Below are positions 7,442-31,268 of a stretch of 64,000 nt of DNA, piece after piece. The notes under the pieces were generated by a model. That model searched no databases and was not told where the DNA came from. It saw nothing but the letters and a program-made list of their open reading frames with translations. A program made the position numbers and the translations under genes. Numbering within the stretch: position 1 is the stretch's first letter; each line of letters opens with the position of its first letter. Source of the DNA: Granulicoccus phenolivorans DSM 17626 = NBRC 107789 = JCM 15570 (GTDB lineage Bacteria > Actinomycetota > Actinomycetes > Propionibacteriales > Propionibacteriaceae); assembly GCF_000423085.1 (NCBI RefSeq), contig NZ_AUHH01000002.1:62001-126000 (forward strand). Reading direction: 5' to 3'.

Positions 7442-10400
7442 TCACAGGGACCGGATCGCCCGCAACGCCACCGACAGTCGCGCCAGATCGGGTTCGAACT
7501 CGGTCGCGGCGGCCACCACGCTCTCCACTCCGGCCAGGCCGCTCACCCGCTCCTTCCAGCGTTCCACCCGTTCGGCGGCATCGAGCCGTTCGTGCTCGTC
7601 CTCGCCCTCGGGTCCGCCGCTGCGGGAGAACACGTCCAGGGTGAGTTCGGCGTGCAGGTGCTGCAGATCGTCGCGCATCGACCCGCGCGCCAGCGAGTCC
7701 CACCGGTCCTGCCGGGGCAGCGCCGAGATCTGGTCACCGAGCTGATCCAGCCGCAGCACCTCGGCCACCTGCAGGTAGACCCGGGCCACCTCGAGCACGT
7801 CGCGTTCCATTTCCAGGGCCTGCTCGACGATGATCAGCGCCTCGAACAGGGTCGGGGCCGCGGCCACCACCGAGGCCAGCCGTTCGGGGACATCGGCGGC
7901 CATCAGCTCGGCCCGACGTTCCTCGGCCTGCGCGCCGGCGCGTCCGATCAGCAGTTGGGACAGGTTCGCCTTGATCGTGCCGACCGGCCCGGCGAACTGC
8001 TGGATCACCTCCGGGATATCGATCGGGGCCCGCCGGTTCTGCAACATCCAGCGGGTGCCGCGCTCGACCAGCCGGCGCAGTTCCACCCGGATCCGCGTCT
8101 GCACCTCCGCGCTGACGCGATGGTCCAGCCGCCGGGTCAGGGTTTCATCGGTCCCGACCGCGAAGATCGCCCGCGCGCTCAGCTGGGCCCGGATGATGTC
8201 CGGCACCGCGGCGCCGGTCTCATCGTGCAGCCGGTGCGCGACGGTGATCCCCGAGGCATTCACGAACCGGTTCACCGCCACGGTGGTGATGATCTCGCGG
8301 TGCAGTTGATGCTTGGGCATCCGGTCGGCGTACGCCTGCCGCAGCTGCTCCGGGAAGTAACTCAGCAGCCGATCGGCCAGGTAGGGATCCTCCGGCAGAT
8401 CGGAGGCCAACACCTCATCGGCGATCGCGATCTTCGTCCAGGCCAGCACGGTGCACAGTTCGGGACCGGACAGGCCCTCGCCGGCCGCGACCCGTTCCTT
8501 CATCTGGCTCTCGGTGGGCAGCCCCTCCAACTTCCGGTCGATGTACCCGCGCCGGACCAGATCATCGATCAGCCGCTGGTGCACCGCGCAGGTCGACGCC
8601 GCGTGCGCCAGCGCATTGGCCAGTGCCAGATTCTGGTCGTAGTTGTGCGCGAGCACGTGCTCGGCCACCGTGTCGGTCATCGAGGCCAGCAACTCGTTGC
8701 GTTCGGGTACGCCCAGCCGGCCCGCCTCGACCTCGGTGGCCAGCAGGATCTTGATGTTCACCTCGTGGTCGGAGGTGTCCACGCCGGCGGAGTTGTCGAT
8801 GAAGTCGGTGTTGAGCCGGCCGCCGGCGCGGGCGTACTCGACCCGGCCGGCCTGGGTCAGGCCCAGGTTGCCGCCCTCCCCGACCACCTGACAGCGCAGC
8901 TCGGCCCCGTTGATCCGCAGCGCGTCATTGGTCCGGTCGCCGACGTCCCGGTTCGTTTCCCCGGTGGCCTTCACATAGGTCCCGATCCCGCCGTTCCACA
9001 GCAGATCCACCGGGGCGGTCAGGATGGCCCGGATCAGGTCGTTCGGCGGCAGCGCGGTGACATCGGAGTCCAGCCCGAGCGCGATCTGCATCTGCGGGCT
9101 GACCGGGATCGACTTGGCCGTACGCGGCCACACTCCCCCGCCCTGACTGATCAGGTCGGTGTTGTAGTCGGCCCAACTGGAGCGCGGGAGGTCGAACAGC
9201 CGGGTCCGTTCGGCAAAGCCGGCGGCCGGGTCCGGATCGGGATCGACAAAGATGTGCAGATGGTTGAATGCGGCGACCAGCCCGATGTGCGGGGTGTAGA
9301 GCATCCCGTTGCCGAACACGTCGCCGGACATGTCGCCGATCCCCACGCAGGTGAAGTCGTCGTTGAACGGGTCGGTGCCGATCTCGCGGAAGTGCCGCTT
9401 GACCGACTCCCAGGCGCCGCGGGCGGTGATGCCCATCTCTTTGTGGTCGTATCCGGTGGCGCCGCCGGAGGCGAACGCGTCGCCGAGCCAGTAGCCGCGC
9501 TGCACCGCGATCTCGTTGGCCATGTCGGAGAAGCTGGCGGTGCCCTTGTCCGCGGCGACCACCAGATAGGGATCGGCGTCGTCGTAGCAGACCACGTCGG
9601 TGGGCCGGATGATCGGGCTGTCGCTCCCGGTCGCCCCGTCGGTGCCGGTGGCCAGGTCGTCGGTCACGTCCAGCAGCGCGTTGATGAAGATCCGGTAGCA
9701 GGCCTCTCCCTCGGCCCGCCACGCGTCACGATCGACGCTGGGATCGGGCAATCGTTTGGGATAGAAGCCGCCCTTGGCCCCGACCGGGACGATCACGGTG
9801 TTCTTCACCATCTGCGCCTTCACCAGACCGAGGATCTCGGTGCGGAAATCCTCGCGGCGATCCGACCAGCGCAACCCGCCCCGGGCCACCTTGCCGAAGC
9901 GCAGGTGGACCCCGCCCACCCGCGGAGAATCCACGAAGACTTCGTACGCCGGCCGCGGATGGGGCGCGTCGGTGAGCTGACCGGGCAGCACCTTCAGCGC
10001 GATCGCCCGATCCACCGCCGGCAGCCCGGGCAGGTCGTCGGTACGGAACGCATTGGTCCGCACGGTCGCGGCAAGCACGGACAGCATGGAGCGCAGGATC
10101 CGGTCCTGGTCCAGACTGGCGACCTGGTCCAGTTCCTCGGTCAGTTGCCCGGTGAGCGCGGTGACCCGTGCCGCGTCGTGCGCCGCCGGATCGAACTTGG
10201 CCCGGAACAGTTCCACCAGCCCGGTCGCCAGGATCGGATTGGCACGCAGCGCCTCGGCGATGTAGTTCTGCGAAAAGGGCAGGCCGAGCTGTCCGAGGTA
10301 GCGCGAGATGGCCCGCAGCCAGGACACCTCCTGCCACTCCAGCCCGGCGCGTACCACCAGTTCGTTCAACGAGTCGGCCCCGCAGCGGCCCTCGTAGGAC

Positions 10401-12286: not shown

Positions 12287-12378
12287 GTCTTCCTCCCGGT
12301 GAGTTCCCTCACCCTATCGAGCGGCGAAACGGCATGGAACAGCACCGGGTCGCCGATCGGGTTCGGCATGATGACCCC

Positions 12379-12864
12379 ATGGAGATCAATGCTCGCGCCG
12401 ACTTCGCCGCGCCGACCGGTGCCGTGTTCACGATGTTGACCACCGAGGAGTATCTGCGGCGGGTCAGTGCCGCGGCCGAGGCGACCGAGGCCGAGGAGAG
12501 CGTGTCCGGCGCGGTCACCCGGACGCGCCGGGCCCTGCCCGCCCCCGAACCGCTGCACGCGGTGACCGGCCGCACGGTGACGGTGACCCAGGTGATCGAC
12601 TGGGGCGCCCCGGACCAGTCGGGGACGCATCGGGGCCGGATCCGGATCACCGTGGAGGGCCAGCCGGCCCGGATGGAAGGCACCGCGGATCTGGTGCCGA
12701 CCCCCTCGGGGACCACTGTCCGGATCCGCGGCGACTTCGAGGTGAAGCTGCCGCTGTTCGGCCGCAAGGTCGAGCAACTGTGCGCCCCGATGATCAGCGA
12801 CGCGATCGGGGTCGAGCAGAGTGTCGGCACCCAGTGGCTGGCCGAGCATCCCGAGGGCCGCTGA
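12379..12864 (+). CDS. DUF2505 family protein
   Basis: Protein of 161 residues starting MEINARADFAAPTGAVFTML. It resembles the actinobacterial DUF2505 family, which has a START/SRPBCC-like alpha/beta lipid-binding fold: an amphipathic N-terminal strand, AVFTMLTTEEYLRR helix, alternating beta strands, then a long C-terminal helix ending QWLAEHPEGR. Function unknown; ligand binding is inferred from the fold. CATGAT lies just upstream of the ATG, fitting a leaderless transcript. One base separates its stop from the methyltransferase start, so the two are translationally linked. Confidence 0.75.
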   Translation: MEINARADFAAPTGAVFTMLTTEEYLRRVSAAAEATEAEESVSGAVTRTRRALPAPEPLHAVTGRTVTVTQVIDWGAPDQSGTHRGRIRITVEGQPARMEGTADLVPTPSGTTVRIRGDFEVKLPLFGRKVEQLCAPMISDAIGVEQSVGTQWLAEHPEGR

Positions 12865-12865
12865 G

Positions 12866-13681
12866 TTGAGCAACCGCTACACCCACGGCCACCACGAGTC
12901 GGTGCTGCGCTCGCACCGCCGGCGCACCGCGGAGAACTCCGCGGGCTACCTGGTGCCGCACCTGTCGGGCGACCAGGACTTGCTCGACGTGGGCTGTGGC
13001 CCCGGCACGATCACGGTCGACCTGGCCGCCCGGGTGCGCCGGGTGACCGCGCTGGAGGTGTCCGAACCGGCCCTGCAGCTGGCCCGGGAGACCGCCACCG
13101 CGGCCGGCGTGGCCAATATCGACTTCGCCATCGGCGACGCGCAGCACCTGGACCTGCCCGACGCCTGCTTCGATGTGGTGCATGCCCACCAAGTGCTCCA
13201 GCATCTGGCCGACCCGGTCGCGGCGCTGCGCGAGATGATCCGGGTCACCCGGCCCGGCGGGCTGGTCGCGGTCCGGGACGCGGACTACCACGGGTTCATC
13301 TGGTATCCCGCCGTCCCCGGTCTGGACCGGTGGCTCGAGCTGTACCAGGAGGTCGCCCGGGCCAATCACGCCGAACCGGACGCCGGCCGGCACCTGTACG
13401 CCTGGGCGCTGGCCGCGGTCGGCGACGCGAGCACCGGGTCGGCCGCGGAAGTAATCCCCTCGGCATCGGCCTGGTGTTTCGCCACCGAGGCCGACCGGAG
13501 CTGGTGGAGCGAGTCCTGGGCCGCCCGGGCCACCGAGTCGGACTTCGCCGAGCAGGCCCGGGAAGCCGGCCACCCCGACACCGAACTCGCCGCGATCGCG
13601 GCCGCCTGGCGGGAATGGGGCGCCAGTCCCGGCGGGTGGCTGCTGATCCCGCACGGGGAGGTGCTGATCCGCACGCAGTGA
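12866..13681 (+). CDS. Class I SAM-dependent methyltransferase (UbiE/MenG-like)
   Basis: Product of 271 residues. Motif I LLDVGCGPGTITVDLA lies near residue 40, the acidic post-I residue follows in TALEVSEPA, DAQHLDLPDACFDVVHAHQVLQHL is motif II, and RPGGLVAVRDADY is motif III. This layout is that of small-molecule methyltransferases of the UbiE/Coq5 type. The C-terminal extension contains Trp-rich segments probably forming the substrate lid. The TTG start is taken because it follows the DUF2505 stop by one base and directly precedes a plausible N-terminus, SNRYTHGHHESVL. Substrate unknown. Confidence 0.85.
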   Translation: MSNRYTHGHHESVLRSHRRRTAENSAGYLVPHLSGDQDLLDVGCGPGTITVDLAARVRRVTALEVSEPALQLARETATAAGVANIDFAIGDAQHLDLPDACFDVVHAHQVLQHLADPVAALREMIRVTRPGGLVAVRDADYHGFIWYPAVPGLDRWLELYQEVARANHAEPDAGRHLYAWALAAVGDASTGSAAEVIPSASAWCFATEADRSWWSESWAARATESDFAEQAREAGHPDTELAAIAAAWREWGASPGGWLLIPHGEVLIRTQ

Positions 13682-21237: not shown

Positions 21238-21324
21238 ATGGGGATGGTTTTCGTGGCGATACTGGGCGCCAACGCGCTCAGCATGGCGGTGCTCAACTTC
21301 TTCGAGTGCCGACCTGGACAATGA
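21238..21324 (+). CDS. Small hydrophobic protein (28 residues), coupled to the next gene
   Basis: A short open frame with a strong ribosome binding site (GGAGGGGGAGG, about 5 bases before the ATG). It encodes [20 protein letters not shown] then FFECRPGQ, a single potential membrane segment. Its TGA overlaps the ATG at 21321 of the following membrane-protein frame (ATGA), the arrangement expected for translational coupling. It could be a genuine small membrane protein, a leader peptide, or a frameshifted N-terminus of the next gene. Confidence 0.45.
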
Positions 21325-22798
21325 GCTGGGTGTGGCTGGCCGGTGCGGCCGGGATGGGACTGTTGCTCCGGCTGGGGTCGGTCCGGCTGCCCCGGCTGAG
21401 GTGGCGGACCCATCTGCTGTGTTGGCTTGCCGCGCTGGTGGTGAGTGCGCCGCGCCTGCCCTATCTGCTCGAGCCGGCCCTGGGGTACGCGGTGGAGGCC
21501 GTGGCATTCGATGACCACTGGCACTTCCAGGAACTGATGTCGTTGGTGAACTCACCGGCCTTCCCACCGGTGTCGACTTTCGATCCGTCCCTGCTGCTGC
21601 CCTACTACTACGGTCCGTGGATCCCGGGCGCGGTGGTGTGGCAGATCGGCGCGGTGGTCACCATCAAGCAGGCATTCTTCGTACTCCATGTGCTGTACGC
21701 GGCCGCGCTTTTGTACGCGACGGTCTACACCGCCCGTGCGGTGTTCCGAACTCGGCTGAACCGGTCGGTGTTGTTCGTGGTGGTCCTGCTGTTCGGGGGA
21801 TTTGATGCTTTCGCAGCGCCCTTCGTGAAGGCGACCAGCGAGTGGTGGGCGATGGACCTGGGCCTCATGCTCCAGTTCTCCAGCACGATCACCCTGCTGT
21901 CGTGGGTGCCGCACCACGTGGCAGGGGCCCTGGCCGTGGTGGCTGCCGCCCGCTGGGCCGATTCACGCCGGTGGAGTGACCGGGTCACCGCGGGCGTGTT
22001 GTTGGCCTCGGCGGTGGGCGCCTCGCCCCTGGTCTGCCTGGGCGCAGTGATCTTCCTGAGCTGGTGGGTGGTGACTCGGGGGTTGTGGGTGTCCGCGGTG
22101 GTGGCCGCCGGCGTCGGCTCCTGCTCTGCGCGCCGATCGGGTGGATGTACCTGGTCCCCGGGGAACGTGGGTTCACCCCGCTGATGGTGATCGCCGACGG
22201 GCCCTTCGCCGATCGTTGGCTGCTCGGTCTGCTGGTGTACGTCCTGGTGGTCGTCCTGGAACTGGGGCCCCTGCTGCTGGCCGCGATCCTCGGCCGACAC
22301 CGGTTCTCTTTGCCGCTGACGGTGCTGAGCTGTGGCTATTTCTTGGTCCCGTTCGTGGTCGGTGGCCCCGGATACAACAACTTCGTGCTGCGCGCCAGCA
22401 TTGTGCCCATCTTCACTCTGATGGTGCTTGCCACCCCGGTGCTGTCAGATTTCGTGCGCCGGCTTCGGCGGCAGCCCGACCCGCTGCGGATCGCTGCAGC
22501 ACTGCTCCTGGTCGGCTACTTCAGCGGTGGCGTGTTGACCTGGGCCCAGCTGATGGCGCAGGCGTGGACTGTGTCGCGTTCGTCCGACGATGCCCTGCAC
22601 GCGGCGATCCTGCGGTCGAACCTGCAGCGCGGCCCGGTGGATCCCGATCTGATGGCACGCGCCGCCGAGCAGGAGTACGCCTGGTACCTGATCGAGGGCC
22701 CGACCGGGGGGCTGCATCATGAACTGCGCACCGAGGACCGGGAACTCGCCGGGGCCGACAGCCCGCTGCGGCTCACCTGGCGCCGGCTGATCGGCTGA
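21321..22798 (+). pseudogene. Polytopic membrane protein gene interrupted by a frameshift
   Basis: The first frame (ATG 21321; an in-frame GTG lies at 21306) encodes [20 protein letters not shown] and many hydrophobic segments up to SWWVVTRGLWVSAVVAAGV, then turns to nonsense and stops near 22182. A second frame picks up at about 22110 with LLLCAPIGWMYLVPGERG and continues through further membrane helices (LLGLLVYVLVVVLELGPLLL, AAALLLVGYFSGGVL) to the TGA at 22798. A single-base loss near 22105-22118 reconciles both. Together they would form a protein of about 490 residues with perhaps ten helices, like large actinobacterial envelope or glycosyltransferase-type membrane proteins; no catalytic motif is identified. 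Sequencing error is possible. Confidence 0.6.
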
Positions 22799-22826: not shown

Positions 22827-24347
22827 CTACCGCGGATTCCAGGCCCGGGTCACCCGGGCGGCATCGTCGGCCAGCGCGACCATGGTCTGGCGCAGGTCGG
22901 CGTACACCTGGGCGTCGCGCGTGGTCACCACCAGCGGCGCGTCGTCGGTGCCCTCGCCGGCGACGGTCCCGCCCATCAGGGTCAGCCCGGCCCCGACGGA
23001 GTCGGCCAGGCCCAGGGCGTACGCCGCCAGCCCGGCGGCCCCCAGCGCGGTCCCGCCGGCATCGGAGGCGACGTAGAACGGCCGGCCGATCACCGCTGCC
23101 ATCACATTGCGCCACAGCTGGGCCCGGAACGGTCCGCCGGTCGCCCGGACGGATTCGACGTGGTCGACCTCGTCCAGGATATTGACGATGGTCCCCAGTT
23201 GCAGGCAGACCCCCTCCAGCGCGGCCCGCAGGAAGTGCTGCCGCCGGTGCTTCTGGCGTACGCCGAGGAACGCCCCGGGGATATCGGGATCCCACAGCGG
23301 CGCCCGCTCGGCCATCAGGTAGGGCACCATCACCAGTCCACCGGCTCCGGCCGGCGCGGTCGCCGCGATCTCCAGGGCCTGCCCCGGGTCCTCGGCGACC
23401 ACGTCGGGAGCGAAGGTCCGCGCCGCCCAGTCGAAGGCCGAGCCACCGTTGCTGCTCGGACCACCCAGCATCCACAGCTCCGGGGTGAGCGCGTAGCAGA
23501 ACAGCCGGCCCTTGGGGTCATAGGTCGGCTCCGGTACCGCGAGCCGGACCGCACCGCTGGTGCCCAGGGACAGCCCGGCCACGCCGGACACGATCGCCCC
23601 GGTCCCGAGGTTGCCCAGCGGTCCGTCCGCGGCGCCTATCACGATCGGTACCGTAGCGTCGATCCCCCACGCCCGGGCCATCTCGGGGCGCAGTTTGTAC
23701 TGTTCGGTGGTGTTGACCAGGGGCGCCAACTGATCGGCATCGACCCCGGCGAATTCCAGGGCCACCTCGTCCCAGGCGAGATTGTGGATGTTCATCAGCC
23801 CGGTGCCCGAACCGTTGGAGATCTCCTGCACGAACTCCCCGGTCAGGTGGTGCATGACCAGTTCCTTGACCCCACCCCAGTAGCGGACCGAGGCCGCCTC
23901 CTCCGGCAACTGCCGCTGGTACCACATGAGTTTCAGCAGTGGGCTCATCGAATGCACCGGGGTCCCGGTGCGCTCCAGCAGGAGGGGGGCGTGGCCCTGT
24001 TCGCGCAGTTCCCGGGCGATGTCGGCGGCCCGGGAATCGGCCCAGGTGGCGAGTCGGGTCACCCCACGCATCCGGTCATCGAATCCGATCAACCCGTGCA
24101 TGGCGGTGGAGATCGAGATGGCGGCGATGTGGGAGTGGTTCAGCTGTTGGATGCACAGCCGCATGGCCTCATCCACCGCGCGCAGCAGGGTGGCCGGGTT
24201 GACCACCTGCCATCCGGCGCTCGGCTGCTCCATCCGGGCTTCCTTCACCGCCATCGCGCTGGCGCCACCGGACCCGCCGACCTCGAAGGCGGCCACCTTG
24301 ACCGCGGTGGTGCCGACATCGAGACCGATGATCACAGACTCGTACAC
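22827..24347 (-). CDS. gntK: Gluconokinase (FGGY carbohydrate kinase)
   Basis: FGGY-family kinase of 506 residues, expected to phosphorylate D-gluconate to 6-phosphogluconate with ATP. The N-terminus VYESVIIGLDVGTTAVKVAAF carries the phosphate-1 motif. ISTAMHGLIGFD, ATWADSRAAD, SNGSGTGLMNIHNLAWDE and GAADGPLGNLGTGA fit the gluconokinase branch rather than xylulokinase. The C-terminal ATP site includes LSLGTSGAVRL, MLGGPSSNGGSAFDW and RATGGPFRAQLWRN. GTG start, 10 bases after the stop of the mannonate-forming reductase, so it is the third gene of a minus-strand operon. Its product is the substrate of the 6-phosphogluconate dehydrogenase encoded 5.5 kb away. The kinase substrate is inferred from family branch and context. 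Confidence 0.85.
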   Translation of the reverse strand: MYESVIIGLDVGTTAVKVAAFEVGGSGGASAMAVKEARMEQPSAGWQVVNPATLLRAVDEAMRLCIQQLNHSHIAAISISTAMHGLIGFDDRMRGVTRLATWADSRAADIARELREQGHAPLLLERTGTPVHSMSPLLKLMWYQRQLPEEAASVRYWGGVKELVMHHLTGEFVQEISNGSGTGLMNIHNLAWDEVALEFAGVDADQLAPLVNTTEQYKLRPEMARAWGIDATVPIVIGAADGPLGNLGTGAIVSGVAGLSLGTSGAVRLAVPEPTYDPKGRLFCYALTPELWMLGGPSSNGGSAFDWAARTFAPDVVAEDPGQALEIAATAPAGAGGLVMVPYLMAERAPLWDPDIPGAFLGVRQKHRRQHFLRAALEGVCLQLGTIVNILDEVDHVESVRATGGPFRAQLWRNVMAAVIGRPFYVASDAGGTALGAAGLAAYALGLADSVGAGLTLMGGTVAGEGTDDAPLVVTTRDAQVYADLRQTMVALADDAARVTRAWNPR

Positions 24348-24357
24348 GTCGGCCGCC

Positions 24358-25755
24358 TCAGGAGCCCGCGACGACGGCCAACCGTCCGACCACGGCGGCG
24401 ACGAACTCGTCGTCGGCGGCCAGGTCCGCGTCCAGGGTGGCCAGGACGCCGCGTACGGCCGCGGTGTCATCGGTGGTGGCGGCGGCCTGCAGTGCCGCTT
24501 CGGCGTGCGCGTCGACGACCGGTGCCCCGGTGCCGCGCAGGTGCAGCACCCAGGCCGCCAACGTGGTGGCGCAGCCCAGCGGCAGCTTCCCCTCGGCCCG
24601 TTCGGCCTTGGCCACCGGCACGGTGCGCTGGGCCAGCTTGATGCTGCCGTCGTGGGCGATCTGGGCCAACAGGTGCCGGATGTTGGGGTTGGCAAAGCGC
24701 TCCAGCAGCGCCGACCGGTAGGCGGCGATGTCGGCCGGGGGCAGGGCCAGGTGCCGGCCGGCCTCGTCCCAGAAGGTCTCCACCCAGCCCCGGATCACCG
24801 GGTCGGCGATCGCTTCGGCGACCGTTTCCCGGCCCCGGATGGGCCCGGCGTAGGCCATCATCGAGTGCGACCCGTTGAGCAGCCACAACTTGCGGGTCTC
24901 GAAGACCTCCAACCCTTCGGTGATCACCGTCGCGCCGGAACTCTCCCAGTCGGGGCGTCCGTGCGGGAACTCGCCCTCGATCACCCACTCGATGAACGGC
25001 TCGGTCGGCACCGGCCAGGCATCGACGTAGCCGCTCTCGGCCAGTACCTGGGCCCGGTTCTCGTCGGTGGTGGCCGGGGTGATCCGGTCGACCATCGAGC
25101 TGGCGAACACGACGACCTCGTCGATCCAGGCCAACAGGTCGGGGTCGTACGCCTCGGCGAACCCGCGGATCGCGGCTCGGGCCACGCCACCGTTGTTGCT
25201 CAGGTTGTCGCACGGCAGCACGGTCAGGCCGCCGACGCCCGCGGCCCGGCGGGCCTGCAGGCCGGCAACGACCTTGCCGGCATAGGTCTCCAACGGCCCG
25301 GTGGACCCGGCGCGCAGGGTGGCGAGATCCCGGACGACGAGTTCGTCGCTCAGGTCCAGGGCGCCCTTGGCGACGGCGTACCCCTTCTCGGTCACCGTGG
25401 AGGTGAGAATCACCACCTCCGGGGAGCTGAGCAGTTCGAGCCAGCGGTCGATCTCCTCGGCCCCGCGGGCCTCGGAAATGGCTCCGATCACCTCCGGCCG
25501 GTTGCCGTCGGCCCCCTGCACGATCAGGGTGTAGAGGCCGTCCTGCGGGGCCAGCGCGTCGGCCTGGTCACGATGCCGACCGCAGAAGGAGGCGATCCCC
25601 CACTGCGCGGCGTCGGCGGCATGGCAGGTGTAGTACGCCTGGTGGGCGCGGTGGAAGTTGCCCAGGCCCACGTGAACGATCCGGACCGGTGCCGCCGGGG
25701 GCATCCCGGGCAGGCTGCGGCTCAATCGGGGGGCTTCGCTGTTCGCGGAACTCAT
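24358..25755 (-). CDS. uxuB: Fructuronate reductase / mannitol dehydrogenase family
   Basis: Long-chain polyol dehydrogenase of 465 residues. N-terminal dinucleotide site VRIVHVGLGNFHRAHQAYYT. The family active-site signature K-x5-N-x2-H is seen in KLWLLNGSHSMMAYAG, around residues 290-305. ILTSTVTEKGY and PCDNLSNNG are also typical. In this setting, directly after glucuronate isomerase, it should reduce D-fructuronate to D-mannonate with NADH (UxuB role). Tagaturonate reductase or mannitol/fructose activity cannot be excluded from sequence alone. Its ATG overlaps the uxaC stop (ATGA), so translation is coupled. Confidence 0.85.
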   Translation of the reverse strand: MSSANSEAPRLSRSLPGMPPAAPVRIVHVGLGNFHRAHQAYYTCHAADAAQWGIASFCGRHRDQADALAPQDGLYTLIVQGADGNRPEVIGAISEARGAEEIDRWLELLSSPEVVILTSTVTEKGYAVAKGALDLSDELVVRDLATLRAGSTGPLETYAGKVVAGLQARRAAGVGGLTVLPCDNLSNNGGVARAAIRGFAEAYDPDLLAWIDEVVVFASSMVDRITPATTDENRAQVLAESGYVDAWPVPTEPFIEWVIEGEFPHGRPDWESSGATVITEGLEVFETRKLWLLNGSHSMMAYAGPIRGRETVAEAIADPVIRGWVETFWDEAGRHLALPPADIAAYRSALLERFANPNIRHLLAQIAHDGSIKLAQRTVPVAKAERAEGKLPLGCATTLAAWVLHLRGTGAPVVDAHAEAALQAAATTDDTAAVRGVLATLDADLAADDEFVAAVVGRLAVVAGS

Positions 25756-27164
25756 AGCTTGAACGCCTTTCGCGGGTTGGTCGAGGTCAGGTCCACCATC
25801 GTCTCGACCGCCTCGTCCTCCTCCAACCGGTGGTCGGCCACCAGCCCGGCCAAGAAGCCGGCGTCCAGGCGGCGGGCCATGTCGTGGCGGGCCGGGATCG
25901 AGCAGAAGGCGCGGGTGTCGTCGATGAACCCGGAGGTCTTGGTGAAGCCGCAGGTATCGGTAACCGCCGAGCGGTAGCGCCGGATCGCCTCCGGGGCGTC
26001 CAGGAACCACCAGGGGGCCCCGGCGTACACGCCCTGGTAGAAGCCGGCCAGCGGCGCGATCTCCCGGGAGAACGTGGTCTCGTCGAGGGTGAACAGCACC
26101 AGCTGGAAGCCCTCGGCGGTTCCGACGCGGTTCAGCATCGGCTGCAGGGCTCGGGTGTATTCGACGCTGATCGGGATGTCGGCGCCGACGTCGGCACCGT
26201 ACTTCTCGAAGGTCGGGCCGTGGTGGTTGCGGGCCACCGCCGGGTGCAGGGTCATCACCAGGCCGTCCTCGGCGGCGAGTTCACCCATCTCGGCCAGCAT
26301 GTGCCGGCGCAGGGCGACCGCCTCGACCTCGTTGATGTGCCCGGCGCGGGCGGCGGCGAACAGCCGTTCGGCGTCGTTCTCGGTGACTCGGTCGGTGCGT
26401 GGGTCGGCATGGGAGTGGTCGGTGGAGACGCCGCCGCGTTCGATGAAGTACCGGCGCCGCTGCCGCATCGCCTCGACCCAGCCGGCGTACGTGCCGGTCT
26501 CGACCCCGCTGACCTCGGCCAGCTTGTCGGTCAGCTCGATCCAGTCCGGGCGGGCCGGTTCGAGGTACTTGTCGGGCCGGAAGGTGGGCGCGACCCGCTT
26601 CGGGAAGGTCGGGTCGGCGGCGATCTTCTCATGGGCGGCGAGATCGTCCAGCGGATCGTCGGTGGTCGCGATGAACTCGATCCCGAAGCGATCGAACAGG
26701 GCCCGCGGGGTGTACTCGGGCGAGGCGAGCTTCTCCGCGATCTGGTCGTAGATCTGGTCGGCGGTCTCCTCGCTGGGGCGCACGTCGATCCCGAAGACGT
26801 CCACGAAGGTCGACTCGAACCAGAACTTCACCGAGGTACCGCGGTAGATCGGCCAGTGCTTGCAGAGCAAGCGGAACGCGTTGCGGGACTGCTCCTCGGA
26901 GAACTCCGCCTGACCCACTCCCAGGTCGGACAGCGAGACGCCCTGGGCGTGCATCAGCCGGTTCACGTAGTGATCGGGGGTGATCAGCAACTGGGTCGGG
27001 TTCCCGAACGGAATGTTGTCGCTGAGCCACTGGGCCGGAACGTGACCGTGCGGGGAGATGATGGGCAGGTCGGCGGCCTCGGCGTACAGACGCCGGGCAA
27101 TGGCACGGACAGACGGTTCGGCGGGGAACAGTCGATCGGGATTCAACTGCAAGGAGTGCGACAT
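25752..27164 (-). CDS. uxaC: Glucuronate isomerase
   Basis: Uronate isomerase of 470 residues in the amidohydrolase-related superfamily, converting D-glucuronate to D-fructuronate (and D-galacturonate to D-tagaturonate). It begins MSHSLQLNPDRLFPAEPSVR and shows ISPHGHVPAQWL (metal-binding H-x-H), EFIATTDDPLDDL, GGVSTDHSHADPRTDR, MTLHPAVARNHH and WWFLDAPEAI, all expected for UxaC. Family length is normal. It is the first gene of the uxaC-uxuB-gntK run, divergent from the LarA-family gene, with candidate operators in the shared 154-bp gap. Confidence 0.93.
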   Translation of the reverse strand: MSHSLQLNPDRLFPAEPSVRAIARRLYAEAADLPIISPHGHVPAQWLSDNIPFGNPTQLLITPDHYVNRLMHAQGVSLSDLGVGQAEFSEEQSRNAFRLLCKHWPIYRGTSVKFWFESTFVDVFGIDVRPSEETADQIYDQIAEKLASPEYTPRALFDRFGIEFIATTDDPLDDLAAHEKIAADPTFPKRVAPTFRPDKYLEPARPDWIELTDKLAEVSGVETGTYAGWVEAMRQRRRYFIERGGVSTDHSHADPRTDRVTENDAERLFAAARAGHINEVEAVALRRHMLAEMGELAAEDGLVMTLHPAVARNHHGPTFEKYGADVGADIPISVEYTRALQPMLNRVGTAEGFQLVLFTLDETTFSREIAPLAGFYQGVYAGAPWWFLDAPEAIRRYRSAVTDTCGFTKTSGFIDDTRAFCSIPARHDMARRLDAGFLAGLVADHRLEEDEAVETMVDLTSTNPRKAFKL

Positions 27165-27201
27165 ATCCCCATCTCAACATCGGCCCCCACAACCTGCCAT
27201 C

Positions 27202-27240
27202 GGTTGCCGCATATTGCGGGTGGGGTTGCCGTTTGTTGCC
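27202..27240. promoter_or_regulatory. Pair of candidate operator sites between uxaC and the LarA-family gene
   Basis: Two copies of GGTTGCCG start at 27202 and 27224, 22 bases apart. Each is followed four (or three) bases later by TTG plus a C- or G-rich end. The first also contains the inverted repeat CCGCA-TAT-TGCGG (27207-27219). The same GTTGCCG core occurs twice, in the opposite orientation, between the LacI gene and gnd. These are candidate sites for that regulator; binding is inferred. Confidence 0.45.
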
Positions 27241-27318
27241 CGCGACTGCGGGCGGGGCACTTGTGGCGGTGCGCGGGGCGGCCGAAGATGGAGGAAAACA
27301 CCAAGGTGAGGAGTCACG

Positions 27319-28602
27319 ATGACGGTGGAGTGCCAGTCGATCGGCGGGGCCGGCTACCACATCGAGCCCGAGGAACTGGCCGGGTTCGTCCGGGACAATC
27401 TGGCGCGGTTGGAGCTGGAGGGCAAGAGCGTCTGCCTGATCATCCCCGACGACACCCGTAGTTGCCCGCTGCCGCAGCTGCTGACCGAGGTGTATCGCAA
27501 CACCGTGGACCGGGCGGCCAACCTCACCTGCATCATCGCGCTGGGTACGCACGCGTACATGGAGCCTGACGAGATCGCTCGGTGGACGACCGGGGACGCC
27601 GCGGCGGACGTGACCGCGGTCTACCCGGGGATGACGATCCTGAACCATGAGTGGCACGACGAGGACAAGCTGGTCAACGTCGGTCACATCGCCGCGGAGC
27701 GGATCAACGAGCTGTCCGGCGGCCGGCTGGCGGTCGGCTCGGACGTGTTGATCAACCGGCATGTCGTCGAGGCCGATGTGAAGATCATCATCGGCCCGAT
27801 CCTGCCGCACGAGGTGGTCGGCATCTCCGGGGGGAACAAATACTTCATTCCGGGCTGCGCCAAGGAGGACCTGATCGACCTCACCCACTGGGTCGGCGCG
27901 CTGATCACCGCCTCGGAGATCATCGGGGCCCCCGGGGTCACCCCGGTGCGGGCGATGATCAACGAGGGGGCGGCGATGATCCCCGGGGAGCACTACTGCC
28001 TCGCGTTCGTGGTCAAGGCGCACACCCTCGACCTGGAGTCGGCGTCCTTCGGGGACCCGCAGGACGCCTGGGCCGAACAGGGCAAGGTCACCGCGCAGAC
28101 CCATGTCGAGTACGTCGATGAACTGTTCGACACGGTGATCGCCGAGATCCCCGAGCGTTACCACGACATCTGGACCGCGGCCAAGGGCTTCTACAAGACC
28201 GAGCCCGCGGTACGCGACGGCGGCGAGGTGATCATCTACGCCCCGCACATCACCGAGGTCTCCGAGGCGCACCATGAGATCTACGACATCGGCTATCACT
28301 GCCGGGACTATTTCGTGAAGCAGTGGGACCGGTTCAAGGAGGTGCCCTGGGGCGTGCTCGCCCACTCCACCCATATGCGGGGGCTGGGCACCTACGATCC
28401 GCAGACCGGGATCGAGGAGGACCGGATCAACGTCACCCTGGCCACCGGGATCTCCAAGGAGATCTGCGATCAGATCAATGTCGGCTACCTCGATCCGGCC
28501 ACGATCGATCTGGCCGCGGAGGCCGGCAAGCCGAATGTAACCGTGGTCCATGACGCCGGGGAGGTGTTGTTCCGGCCTGCCGCGCAGCGGCCCCAGAATT
28601 GA
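27319..28602 (+). CDS. LarA-family (nickel-pincer cofactor) hydroxy-acid racemase/epimerase, candidate mannonate-gluconate 2-epimerase
   Basis: Product of 427 residues matching the lactate racemase LarA family (DUF2088). Expected active-site positions are visible: GTHAYMEPDE with His78, ILPHEVVGISGGNKYFIPG with His164 and Lys174, and His190 in LTHW. The Lys-His spacing of 16 equals that of the cofactor-binding pair in characterised LarA as I recall it. LarA enzymes invert C2 of 2-hydroxy acids by hydride transfer to the nickel-pincer nucleotide. It sits divergent to glucuronate isomerase and fructuronate reductase, which yield D-mannonate, beside gluconokinase. D-mannonate and D-gluconate are C2 epimers, so a 2-epimerase role is inferred. 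GAGGAG precedes the ATG. No cofactor-synthesis genes (larB, larC, larE) are in view. Confidence 0.85.
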   Translation: MTVECQSIGGAGYHIEPEELAGFVRDNLARLELEGKSVCLIIPDDTRSCPLPQLLTEVYRNTVDRAANLTCIIALGTHAYMEPDEIARWTTGDAAADVTAVYPGMTILNHEWHDEDKLVNVGHIAAERINELSGGRLAVGSDVLINRHVVEADVKIIIGPILPHEVVGISGGNKYFIPGCAKEDLIDLTHWVGALITASEIIGAPGVTPVRAMINEGAAMIPGEHYCLAFVVKAHTLDLESASFGDPQDAWAEQGKVTAQTHVEYVDELFDTVIAEIPERYHDIWTAAKGFYKTEPAVRDGGEVIIYAPHITEVSEAHHEIYDIGYHCRDYFVKQWDRFKEVPWGVLAHSTHMRGLGTYDPQTGIEEDRINVTLATGISKEICDQINVGYLDPATIDLAAEAGKPNVTVVHDAGEVLFRPAAQRPQN

Positions 28603-28712
28603 GCGGGCGCGCAGCGGCCCCGGGACTGAGCGGGCGCGCAGCGGCCCCGGGACTGAACGGGCGCAGCGGCCCCGGGACTGAACGGGCGCAGCGGCCCCGG
28701 GACTGAACGGCC
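28581..28712 (+). repeat. Tandem repeat duplicating the 3' end of the LarA-family gene
   Basis: GCAGCGGCCCC recurs at 28584, 28611, 28638, 28663 and 28688, giving periods of 27, 27, 25 and 25 bases. The first unit is the last codons plus stop of the gene (ends near CCAGAATTGA); later units read CCCGGGACTGA. It ends just before the LacI stop codon. No spacers, so it is not a CRISPR array. Confidence 0.9.
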
Positions 28713-28717
28713 GGCGG

Positions 28718-29707
28718 TCAGGGGCGACGGGCCGGGCCGGTGGATTCGCGGACGACCAACCGGGTCGGCAGCACCACCGAGGCCTGTCGCTTGCCCTCCC
28801 GGTGCACCAGGATCTGATTGATCGCGGCGACCCCGAGGCTGAACACCGGGGCGGCGATCGTGGTCAGTGCGGGCACCATCTGCAGGCTGTTCAGGGTGTT
28901 GTCGAAACCGATCACCGAGACGAAGTCCGGTACCGCCACCCCGTGGCGGCGGGCCGATTCGACGAAGCCCATGGCGATCAGGTCGTTGTAGGCGACCACC
29001 GCCGTGGTCGGCGCGGTCCGCCAGCGTTCGAAGGCCTCGGCGCCGCCGGCCAGGGTCGGTGGGAAGGGACCGATCCGGGTGGTCCGCAGGTCCAACTCCA
29101 TCCCGGCCTCGAGCAGGCCGCGCCAGCGGACCGAATCCGCCCAGGAGGTTTCCGGGCCCCCCAGATAGGCGATCTCGCGATGGCCGAAGCGACCCAGGTG
29201 CTCCGCAGCGCGCTTCATCCCGCGAACATCGTCGGAGACCAGCGACCGCACCTGACTCACGATCCGGTTGACCACGATCAGCGGGCGCTGCTTGGCGAAG
29301 CGTCGAATGGCACTGTCGGGCATCCGCGATCCGCCGAGCACGATCCCGTCGACCCGCTCGGTCATCTTGGTCAGCAGGCGCTCCTCCTGGGGGCCGGAGT
29401 CCTGGGTGTCCATGATGCTGAGCACGTAGCCGGCGTCCTGGGCGGATTGCTGCGCGCCCCGGATCAGGCCGTTGAAGGCCGGGTTGGTGATATCGGCAAC
29501 CACCAGCAGGAGCATTCCGTCGCGGCGGTCGAGTTCGCGTTGCATCGGGCGGGACCGGTAGCCGAGTTCGGCGGCCACCCGGCGGATGCGCTCGGCAGTT
29601 TCGAAGCTCACCCGGCCCGGATTCGACAGCGCTCGCGAGACGGTCGAGGGCGCAACCTCTGCCGCCTTCGCCACGTCGTAGATGGTCGGTCCGCCCGATG
29701 ACTGCAC
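28718..29707 (-). CDS. LacI-family transcriptional regulator
   Basis: Regulator of 329 residues. The N-terminal helix-turn-helix reads TIYDVAKAAEVAPSTVSRALSN with the hinge-preceding ERIRRVAAELGYR. The sugar-binding domain follows: LLLVVADITNPAFNGLIRGAQ, VDGIVLGGSRM, YLGGPETSWADSVRWRGLLEA, AVVAYNDLIAMGF and SVIGFDNTLNSLQMVPALTTI. By position it should control the uronate/gluconate genes on both sides, with a sugar acid as inducer (inferred). The start is the GTG at 29707, since the HTH begins six residues later. TATAGT lies 6 bases upstream, implying a leaderless mRNA. Divergent from gnd. Confidence 0.9.
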   Translation of the reverse strand: MQSSGGPTIYDVAKAAEVAPSTVSRALSNPGRVSFETAERIRRVAAELGYRSRPMQRELDRRDGMLLLVVADITNPAFNGLIRGAQQSAQDAGYVLSIMDTQDSGPQEERLLTKMTERVDGIVLGGSRMPDSAIRRFAKQRPLIVVNRIVSQVRSLVSDDVRGMKRAAEHLGRFGHREIAYLGGPETSWADSVRWRGLLEAGMELDLRTTRIGPFPPTLAGGAEAFERWRTAPTTAVVAYNDLIAMGFVESARRHGVAVPDFVSVIGFDNTLNSLQMVPALTTIAAPVFSLGVAAINQILVHREGKRQASVVLPTRLVVRESTGPARRP

Positions 29708-29737
29708 AGGTCGACTATAAGCGGAAGCGATGGAAAC

Positions 29738-29788
29738 TTTCGGCAACTTCGCGGACCCGAGTGGCGGGTGCGGAAAGTTTCGGCAACC
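29738..29788. promoter_or_regulatory. Two candidate operator sites between the LacI gene and gnd
   Basis: GGAAACTTTCGGCAAC and GGAAAGTTTCGGCAAC share TTTCGGCAAC (29738-29747 and 29778-29787) and are 40 bases apart. Each carries a short palindrome, GAAA-S-TTTC. Read on the minus strand both contain GTTGCCG, the core also found upstream of uxaC and the LarA-family gene. Confidence 0.5.
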
Positions 29789-29825
29789 GGTCCTGCCCGG
29801 TGCCGGGATAGGTGACGCTGGCCCC

Positions 29826-31268
29826 ATGAACTCTGCAGATCTCGCACAGGTCGGCGTCGTCGGCATGGCCGTGATGGGCTCGAACCTGGCTCGCAACTTC
29901 GCATCCAAGGGCTTTCGGGTCGCGCTCTACAACCGCACGTGGGCCAGGACGCAGGAGGTGATCGATCAGCACGGCTCCGAGGGTGACTTCCGGGCCTCGG
30001 AGAAGCTGGAGGATTTTGTCGCCAGCCTGGAGCGGCCGCGCCGGATCATCATCATGGTGAAGGCCGGCGCCGGCACCGATGCGGTGATCCAGCAGCTGAC
30101 CCCGCTGTTGGAAGAGGGCGACATCATCGTCGACGGCGGGAACGCCGACTTCCACGACACCCGGCGGCGCGAGCACGAGTTGGCCGAGCACAAGCTGCAC
30201 TTCGTCGGCGCCGGGATCTCCGGCGGCGAGGAGGGGGCGCTGAACGGACCGAGCATCATGCCCGGCGGCCCGAAGGACTTCTATCCGGTGCTGGGCCCGA
30301 TGCTGGAGAAGATCTCGGCCCACTACGAGGGCGAGCCCTGCTGTACCTATATCGGTCCCGACGGGGCCGGCCACTTCGTGAAGATGGTGCACAACGGCAT
30401 CGAGTACGCCGACATGCAGTTCATCGCCGAGGCGTACGACGTGCTCAAGGCGGCCGGGCTGAGCACCGCGGAGATCTCCGACGCGTTCCGGCAGTGGAAC
30501 ACCGGCGATCTGGACTCCTTCCTGATCGAGATCACCTCGATCGTGCTGGATCAGACCGACCCGCGCACCGGGCAGCCGCTGGTCGACATCATCGTCGACC
30601 AGGCCGAGCAGAAGGGCACCGGCCGGTGGACGGTGCAGAACGCGCTCGAGCTCGGGGTACCGGTGAACACCATTGCCGAAGCGGTGTTCGCTCGCTCCAC
30701 CTCCGGGCACGAGGCGCTGCGCAAGGCCGGGCAGGCGGCGCTGCAGGGTCCCGACCGGAGCATCGCGGTCGAGGACCGGCAACAGCTGCTCAGTGACGTC
30801 CGGGATGCGCTGTGGGCCGCCAAGGTCGTCGCGTACGCCCAGGGCCTCGATGAGATCCGCACCGGATCCGACGAGTTCGACTGGAACATCGATATCTCCG
30901 CGGTGGTGAAGATCTGGCGGGCCGGGTGCATCATTCGGGCCAAGCTGTTGGACCGCATCTCCAACGAGTATGCCGCGCAGAACCTGGCCACGCTGTTGGA
31001 GGCGCCCTCGGTGGCGGCCGATCTGGACAGTGCCCAGACCGGCTGGCGTCGGGTGATCGGGCTGGCGACCGCGGCCGGGGTGCCGGTGCCGGGCTTCTCC
31101 GCCGCGCTGGCGTACTACGACTCCGCGCGGGATCCGCGCCTGCCGGCCGCGCTGGTGCAGGGGCTGCGGGACTACTTCGGGGCGCACACCTACCGGCGGG
31201 TCGACGATGCGGGCAGCTATCACATCGAGTGGTCCGGGGATCGCTCGGAGACCCGCACCGACGCCTGA
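29826..31268 (+). CDS. gnd: 6-phosphogluconate dehydrogenase, decarboxylating
   Basis: Enzyme of 480 residues oxidising 6-phosphogluconate to ribulose 5-phosphate and CO2 with NADP+. The N-terminal Rossmann site is VGVVGMAVMGSNLARNFA. The substrate site includes IIVDGGNADFHDTRRRE, FVGAGISGGEEGALNGPSIMPGG (catalytic region) and HFVKMVHNGIEYADMQFIAE with Lys and Asn. The all-alpha domain carries DQAEQKGTGRWT and the C-terminal FRRDYFGAHTY-like stretch YFGAHTYRRVD. Length is typical of the long, decarboxylating form. Its location beside the LacI regulator and shared operator-like sites tie it to gluconate produced by the neighbouring cluster. It ends at a strong terminator shared with hpf. Confidence 0.93.
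   Translation: MNSADLAQVGVVGMAVMGSNLARNFASKGFRVALYNRTWARTQEVIDQHGSEGDFRASEKLEDFVASLERPRRIIIMVKAGAGTDAVIQQLTPLLEEGDIIVDGGNADFHDTRRREHELAEHKLHFVGAGISGGEEGALNGPSIMPGGPKDFYPVLGPMLEKISAHYEGEPCCTYIGPDGAGHFVKMVHNGIEYADMQFIAEAYDVLKAAGLSTAEISDAFRQWNTGDLDSFLIEITSIVLDQTDPRTGQPLVDIIVDQAEQKGTGRWTVQNALELGVPVNTIAEAVFARSTSGHEALRKAGQAALQGPDRSIAVEDRQQLLSDVRDALWAAKVVAYAQGLDEIRTGSDEFDWNIDISAVVKIWRAGCIIRAKLLDRISNEYAAQNLATLLEAPSVAADLDSAQTGWRRVIGLATAAGVPVPGFSAALAYYDSARDPRLPAALVQGLRDYFGAHTYRRVDDAGSYHIEWSGDRSETRTDA

Follow-up and report, generated by a model that had tools for sequence, protein, structure and literature searches.

The canonical route for D-glucuronate runs through UxaC, UxuB, UxuA, KdgK and Eda. Another fate of mannonate was proposed by Rodionova et al. 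in 2012 (as reported in PMC6978723), in which mannonate is epimerized to gluconate, and gluconokinase and 6-phosphogluconate dehydrogenase then follow. The D-mannonate/D-gluconate 2-epimerization was shown in 2020 for two enzymes of the LarA family, GntE2 of Thermotoga maritima and GntE1 of Corynebacterium glutamicum (PMC7583248), and an oomycete GntE was added later (PMC11770544), while PMC6978723 described in vivo proof of the pathway as lacking as of 2020. Here, we describe a gene cluster of this kind in a 64,000-nucleotide stretch of contig NZ_AUHH01000002.1 of the actinomycete Granulicoccus phenolivorans DSM 17626 (the window, meaning the whole stretch analysed). The cluster combines a uronate isomerase (UxaC), a UxuB-type dehydrogenase, a LarA homologue (putative GntE), an FGGY carbohydrate kinase, a LacI-family regulator and 6-phosphogluconate dehydrogenase (Gnd), and probably forms a unit leading from glucuronate through mannonate, gluconate and 6-phosphogluconate to ribulose 5-phosphate by means of a LarA-type epimerase. 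An earlier note, made from the sequence of this DNA, had put forward the same route; it mentioned gluconate 2-epimerase activity in the LarA family, which is indeed published (PMC7583248), whereas the role of that activity as the joint of the pathway, which it took to be unreported, dates back to the 2012 proposal.

In the proposed route, which would make the cluster one LacI-controlled unit of D-glucuronate catabolism, UxaC would convert glucuronate to fructuronate and UxuB would convert fructuronate to D-mannonate. The LarA homologue would then turn D-mannonate into D-gluconate, inverting C2 by proton-coupled hydride transfer on a nickel-pincer nucleotide (NPN). The FGGY kinase would phosphorylate D-gluconate to 6-phosphogluconate, which Gnd would decarboxylate to ribulose 5-phosphate. 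If so, these organisms would need nickel for growth on glucuronate, and glucuronate would yield pentose phosphate and NADPH in place of pyruvate.

The cluster resembles the gntE-gntK-gnd hexuronate locus of T. maritima, which likewise leads from hexuronate to mannonate, through a LarA-family epimerase to gluconate, and on to gluconokinase and 6-phosphogluconate dehydrogenase. However, there is in T. maritima a kdgA-kdgK-uxuB-uxuA operon besides, and the gntE locus is governed by the GntR-family regulator UxaR (PMC3750489); neither UxuA nor Eda was found in the window's genome, and the cluster described here contains a LacI regulator. The T. maritima locus has also been described for pectin and galacturonate, whereas the input here would most likely be glucuronate. 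C. glutamicum GntE1 (LarAH19), whose group has a uronic-acid gene context, is an actinomycete LarA homologue like the one in the window; its activity on D-mannonate has been shown (PMC7583248). The galacturonate pathway of Lactobacillus suebicus also leads from mannonate to 6-phosphogluconate and into pentose phosphate metabolism, but there phosphorylation precedes epimerization and a phosphoketolase follows, and the genes of its two key steps were left unassigned (PMC6978723). With the canonical pathway the cluster has the first two steps in common, but the genome differs in its lack of detectable UxuA and Eda and of a recognisable kinase for 2-keto-3-deoxygluconate (KDG).

Both the enzyme class and the pathway were known before, and the locus appears to be an unusually clean actinomycete case of a known route, of modest novelty. 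Its contribution is a regulon-level argument that in actinomycetes mannonate and gluconate form the physiological pair, which PMC7583248 had left open. Searches of titles, abstract openings and text passages turned up no published account of an actinomycete gene set lacking UxuA and Eda, nor of the operator motif, with subscription papers and supplements lying outside those searches.

The LarA homologue and its gene cluster

All six genes are present, open and arranged as the earlier note had them. On the minus strand, uxaC, uxuB and gntK make up a tight operon, in which uxaC and uxuB overlap by 4 bp, where the uxuB ATG meets the uxaC stop, and gntK begins 10 bp after uxuB. The start of gntE lies 154 bp from uxaC on the opposite strand, lacI comes next, and gnd is divergent from lacI. 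UxaC, the single match in the whole genome, reaches 541.8 bits against a cut-off of 387 for the NCBIfam glucuronate isomerase equivalog, and its best match in the PDB is uronate isomerase 2Q01 (E 9.2e-124). Gnd passes its NCBIfam equivalog as well (695 bits vs 413). The nearest solved structure for the kinase is 3GBT, named gluconate kinase (E 8e-85), followed by a xylulose kinase (2.8e-46), while UxuB matches mannitol dehydrogenase 1LJ8 (E 3.4e-74).

The LarA homologue belongs to the LarA superfamily of NPN-dependent 2-hydroxy acid racemases and epimerases, as its fold, domain and residues, together with the NPN genes of the genome, indicate. The Pfam domain Lar_N is matched at 84.4 against a cut-off of 23.3. 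The top PDB match is 4NAR, both in a single-sequence search (E 6.6e-48) and with a profile of 28 sequences (E 7e-83; next PDB sequence 1.6e-14), and 4NAR is T. maritima GntE2, a proven D-mannonate/D-gluconate 2-epimerase (PMC7583248). An AlphaFold2 model (mean predicted local distance difference test, pLDDT, 89.6; predicted template modelling score, pTM, 0.87) gave the same result, with 4NAR as the top match of Foldseek (template modelling score 0.86) and of VIA-align (Z 44.4 over 400 residues at 2.1 Å; next entry Z 30.8), where all 12 listed entries with Z >20 are LarA-family structures. Among characterised relatives with a structure, the nearest is thus a GntE, at 28% identity over 400 aligned residues.

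The catalytic and NPN residues D44, R47, H78, H164, K174, H190 and K289 correspond to LarA D72, R75, H108, H174, K184, H200 and K298, the equivalences being drawn from alignments to 4NAR and the residue list in PMC7583248; the four residues that the earlier note had named (His78, His164, Lys174 and His190) are as it gave them. Conservation was followed in the window and 80 related loci, which are the best 80 of 105 confirmed relatives from a scan of named genomes, C. glutamicum GntE1 not being among them. Asp44, Arg47 and His78 are identical in 81/81 sequences, and His164, Lys174, His190 and Lys289 in 80/81, as the sequence of locus L103 breaks off too soon to be read there. The GntE signature was taken as a Glu-Val/Ser loop after the catalytic His, a Trp in helix 11 and Ala/Val in helix 14. 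The window's protein has E165-V166, a Glu-Val loop as is typical for the GntE groups, and W285, all identical in 80/81, while the helix-14 positions, as mapped here, are V346 and L347, with position 346 variable among the 81 sequences. Against the NCBIfam model NF052594 (NPN_18_hexonate), the protein scores 147.9 bits, under the cut-off of 500.

The related sequences also differ at two further positions (window numbering). Trp344 with mostly Phe291 occurs in 64/81, the window included, Lys344 with Cys291 in 14/81 and Thr344 with Cys291 in 2/81; one sequence is unreadable here. It is possible that this division into two subclades corresponds to a split in substrate specificity.

Cofactor genes, classical route and conservation among relatives

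The nickel-pincer cofactor, on which the earlier note's mechanism depends, has its biosynthesis genes elsewhere in the genome, all above curated cut-offs: LarC lies on contig C45 (13031-14254) with LarB adjoining (12364-12984), and LarE on contig C1 (124381-125157). The classical steps, which that note had found absent from the cluster, are also undetected in the genome assembly, which is 98.46% complete. UxuA and Eda (the 2-keto-3-deoxy-6-phosphogluconate aldolase) gave no match in it. An enolase-superfamily mannonate dehydratase was not found either, the two enolase-superfamily matches being MenC and enolase. A KDG-kinase equivalog was likewise not found; among PfkB genes, a ribokinase-like gene, a fructokinase-like gene and one for pyridoxal kinase pass the Pfam cut-off, and one weaker match lies below it. 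The chief reservation about KDG kinase concerns the fructokinase-like protein, which scores 51.5 bits with the nearest KDG kinase model, whose cut-off is 440. Because UxuA and Eda were not detected, the GntE route would be the sole outlet for mannonate in this organism. The NPN genes, together with the lack of detectable uxuA, eda and recognisable kdgK, support the mechanism suggested by the note, old as the idea itself is. For this organism, we infer growth on glucuronate, mannonate as the substrate of the epimerase, and epimerization ahead of phosphorylation.

The same family searches were run on 117 genomes of the same family and 14 named control genomes. In the control genome of C. glutamicum, LarC and UxaC were matched and UxuA and Eda were not, which is the pattern of the window's genome. 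Among the 117 family genomes, GntE was found in 52, UxaC in 70, LarC in 50, UxuA in 29 and Eda in 101, one match of each of the latter two lying under the family cut-off. UxaC is present in 51 of the 52 GntE-positive genomes, divergent from gntE within 500 bp in 30 of them and within 10 kb in 40. The 70 UxaC-positive genomes divide into 41 with GntE only, 13 with UxuA only, 10 with both and 6 with neither (Fisher p 3e-4), counts and p value being uncorrected for phylogeny and shared ancestry. Six of the 41 genomes with GntE and without UxuA, the window's genome among them, are also without any Eda match.

The gene set recurs among actinomycetes. Of the 80 related loci, 79 bear actinobacterial names and one is titled Acidobacteria. 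UxaC and UxuB were each found in 55, LacI in 52, Gnd in 42, LarE in 34, LarB in 31, LarC in 27 and an FGGY kinase in 16; since many loci are short, these counts are lower bounds. UxuA was found in 0/80 (one tblastn query). Among the 44 loci that extend 5 kb or more to both sides, UxaC and UxuB occur together in 29, and at least one of LarB, LarC and LarE in 26. In addition, a beta-glucuronidase occurs in 17/80 and a GPH symporter in 15/80, which points to glucuronides as a source of the substrate; an exemplar GusA reaches 912.8 bits (cut-off 544), and an exemplar symporter passes the GPH cut-off and falls just short of the glucuronide transporter equivalog (498.4 vs 528).

Moreover, a common motif was found from the upstream regions of the relatives. 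The motif GGCAACNNGTTGCC (palindrome GGCAAC-NN-GTTGCC) was searched, with two mismatches allowed, in the 300 bp upstream of gntE and of lacI, and is enriched 12.8-fold (67 matches against 5.25 expected, in 43/80 related loci), a figure that is partly circular because the motif was derived from the same loci; the best of 89 other permutations of the half-site reached only 3.4-fold. In the window itself, 5 of 50 half-sites fall inside 242 bp of the uxaC/gntE and lacI/gnd gaps (the lacI/gnd part counted being 29738-29825), where 0.19 would be expected (binomial p 1.4e-6), a count made post hoc, after the repeated half-sites had been noticed. One motif links mannonate-making and 6-phosphogluconate-using genes across many actinomycetes. 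Most simply, a single LacI-type regulator would govern the uronate, epimerase and gnd genes jointly, with the LacI protein presumably binding the candidate motif.

Between 29730 and 29790 in the lacI/gnd gap, there are two near-identical 16-bp copies of GGAAASTTTCGGCAAC, whose GGCAAC half is common to the relatives and whose GAAASTTTC half occurs in the window only there, and in one of the 80 related loci. GAAASTTTC was considered as an operator in its own right and rejected: the window has 2 sites against 0.11 expected, but 1.29 Mb of the 80 loci hold 2 matches, both in one locus.

Substrate, reaction order and competing readings

Several results weigh against the proposed route. The best NCBIfam match of UxuB is fructuronate reductase, at 269.5 bits under the cut-off of 603, with D-arabinitol 4-dehydrogenase second at 233.5 bits, and the kinase scores best with gntK_FGGY (TIGR01314) at 346 bits under a cut-off of 648.55. 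Because the best families are the right ones and the scores lie below curated cut-offs, the names UxuB and GntK draw on family membership and gene context. Only 28/80 related loci have a kinase gene of any tested type, a motif for P-loop gluconokinase matched none of the 80, and no transporter was seen in the window's gene cluster. The full palindrome with at most two mismatches was found in neither of the window's two gaps. LarC has no match in 12 of the 52 GntE-positive family genomes, five of the 12 belonging to one genus, and GntE and UxuA occur together in 10 of the 70 UxaC-positive genomes. Two attempts to see GntE and UxuA as mutually exclusive were given up: over all 117 genomes exclusion is unsupported (11 with both, p 0.52), and zero overlap in 394 genomes of the class is close to chance, with about 1 expected. 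From the literature, C. glutamicum GntE1 has a Michaelis constant (Km) of 120 mM for D-mannonate, for which its authors suspected another substrate and left the native one open (PMC7583248).

The order of the last steps may also be the reverse, with the FGGY kinase producing 6-phosphomannonate and the LarA homologue epimerizing it to 6-phosphogluconate, which Gnd would use at once. Both activities were shown in extracts of galacturonate-grown L. suebicus, in which no gluconate was formed from mannonate without ATP (PMC6978723). The high Km of GntE1 leaves room for a phosphorylated native substrate, and in the minority subclade (14/81) Lys replaces Trp344, a residue that maps here close to the substrate helix. 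However, the window's protein carries Trp344, its closest solved relative GntE2 acts on free D-mannonate with a Km of 17 mM (PMC7583248), and the kinase has as its closest solved relative a protein named gluconate kinase. The L. suebicus epimerase need not be a LarA protein either, because its candidate gene is said to be homologous to TM0042 of T. maritima and to resemble aldose 1-epimerases (PMC6978723). On balance, we regard phosphorylation before epimerization as unlikely. If it were true, it would give LarA enzymes a new substrate class, provide a gene family for an activity reported so far from L. suebicus extracts alone, and account for the poor affinity, by Km, of GntE1 for free mannonate.

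It is quite improbable that the LarA homologue acts on some other uronate-related 2-hydroxy acid, such as an aldarate or another hexonate, with mannonate used in some other way. The Km of GntE1 and the doubt of its authors about the C. glutamicum group lend themselves to this idea, but the conserved partners UxaC and UxuB make mannonate, Gnd needs 6-phosphogluconate, and the shared motif joins both ends. Mannonate would then be left a dead end, because neither UxuA nor an enolase-superfamily mannonate dehydratase was detected in the genome.

Ordinary degradation through UxuA, KdgK and Eda with the LarA homologue as a bystander, to which the 10 family genomes with both UxuA and GntE lend some colour, is contradicted for the window's genome unless both genes sit in the roughly 1.5% left unassembled, as identical searches detected UxuA in 29 and Eda in 101 family genomes out of 117 and neither here, and only a very slim chance can be given to it.

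Feature coordinates and side observations

Table 1. Genes and intergenic gaps of the putative glucuronate cluster, in window positions
Feature	Position	Strand	Remarks
gntK, FGGY carbohydrate kinase, probable gluconokinase	22827-24347	-	GTG start; Pfam FGGY_N/FGGY_C
UxuB-type dehydrogenase, probable fructuronate reductase	24358-25755	-	ATG start; Pfam Mannitol_dh and Mannitol_dh_C
UxaC, glucuronate/uronate isomerase	25752-27164	-	NCBIfam glucuronate isomerase equivalog; PDB 2Q01
uxaC/gntE divergent gap	27165-27318		GTTGCC half-sites at 27203, 27225 and 27235; candidate LacI operators
LarA homologue, probable D-mannonate/D-gluconate 2-epimerase (GntE)	27319-28602	+	Pfam Lar_N; nearest structure 4NAR
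LacI-family regulator	28718-29707	-	Pfam LacI and Peripla_BP_3; likely start GTG at 29707
lacI/gnd divergent gap	29708-29825		Candidate LacI operators; GGAAASTTTCGGCAAC occurs twice, with GGCAAC at 29742 and at 29782
Gnd, NADP-dependent 6-phosphogluconate dehydrogenase	29826-31268	+	ATG start; NCBIfam equivalog

Some related loci have a PfkB-family kinase, not an FGGY kinase, in or near the kinase slot, as in L113 (5685-6761) and L128 (about 8712-9785), and the same type of kinase is present in L074, L075, L091, L095, L114, L125, L131, L132 and L134. In L113, for example, it comes after uxuB, and in L128, L131, L132 and L134 it is part of a gnd-pfkB-gntE series; these slot kinases are 32-38% identical to a KDG-kinase-like protein of L070. 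Given that no UxuA was matched in those loci, the slot kinase may be a non-orthologous gluconokinase. KDG-kinase-like and Eda genes lie near the gntE set in L069 and L070, the latter additionally having a second uxaC and a uxuB-like gene, and these extra genes perhaps form a separate galacturonate branch.

One genus (g7) has five GntE-positive genomes out of six without a LarC match (G006, G029, G047, G063 and G077, as against G099), two of which are 97-98% complete. In this genus, either LarC is divergent or the cofactor is acquired otherwise. A plasmid search returned two Embleya records at 53.5% identity, and the one opened carries no gene annotation.

In the window, two overlapping plus-strand open reading frames in different frames (21306-22184 and 22064-22798) have many hydrophobic stretches and no Pfam match, and they look like one membrane protein broken by a frameshift.

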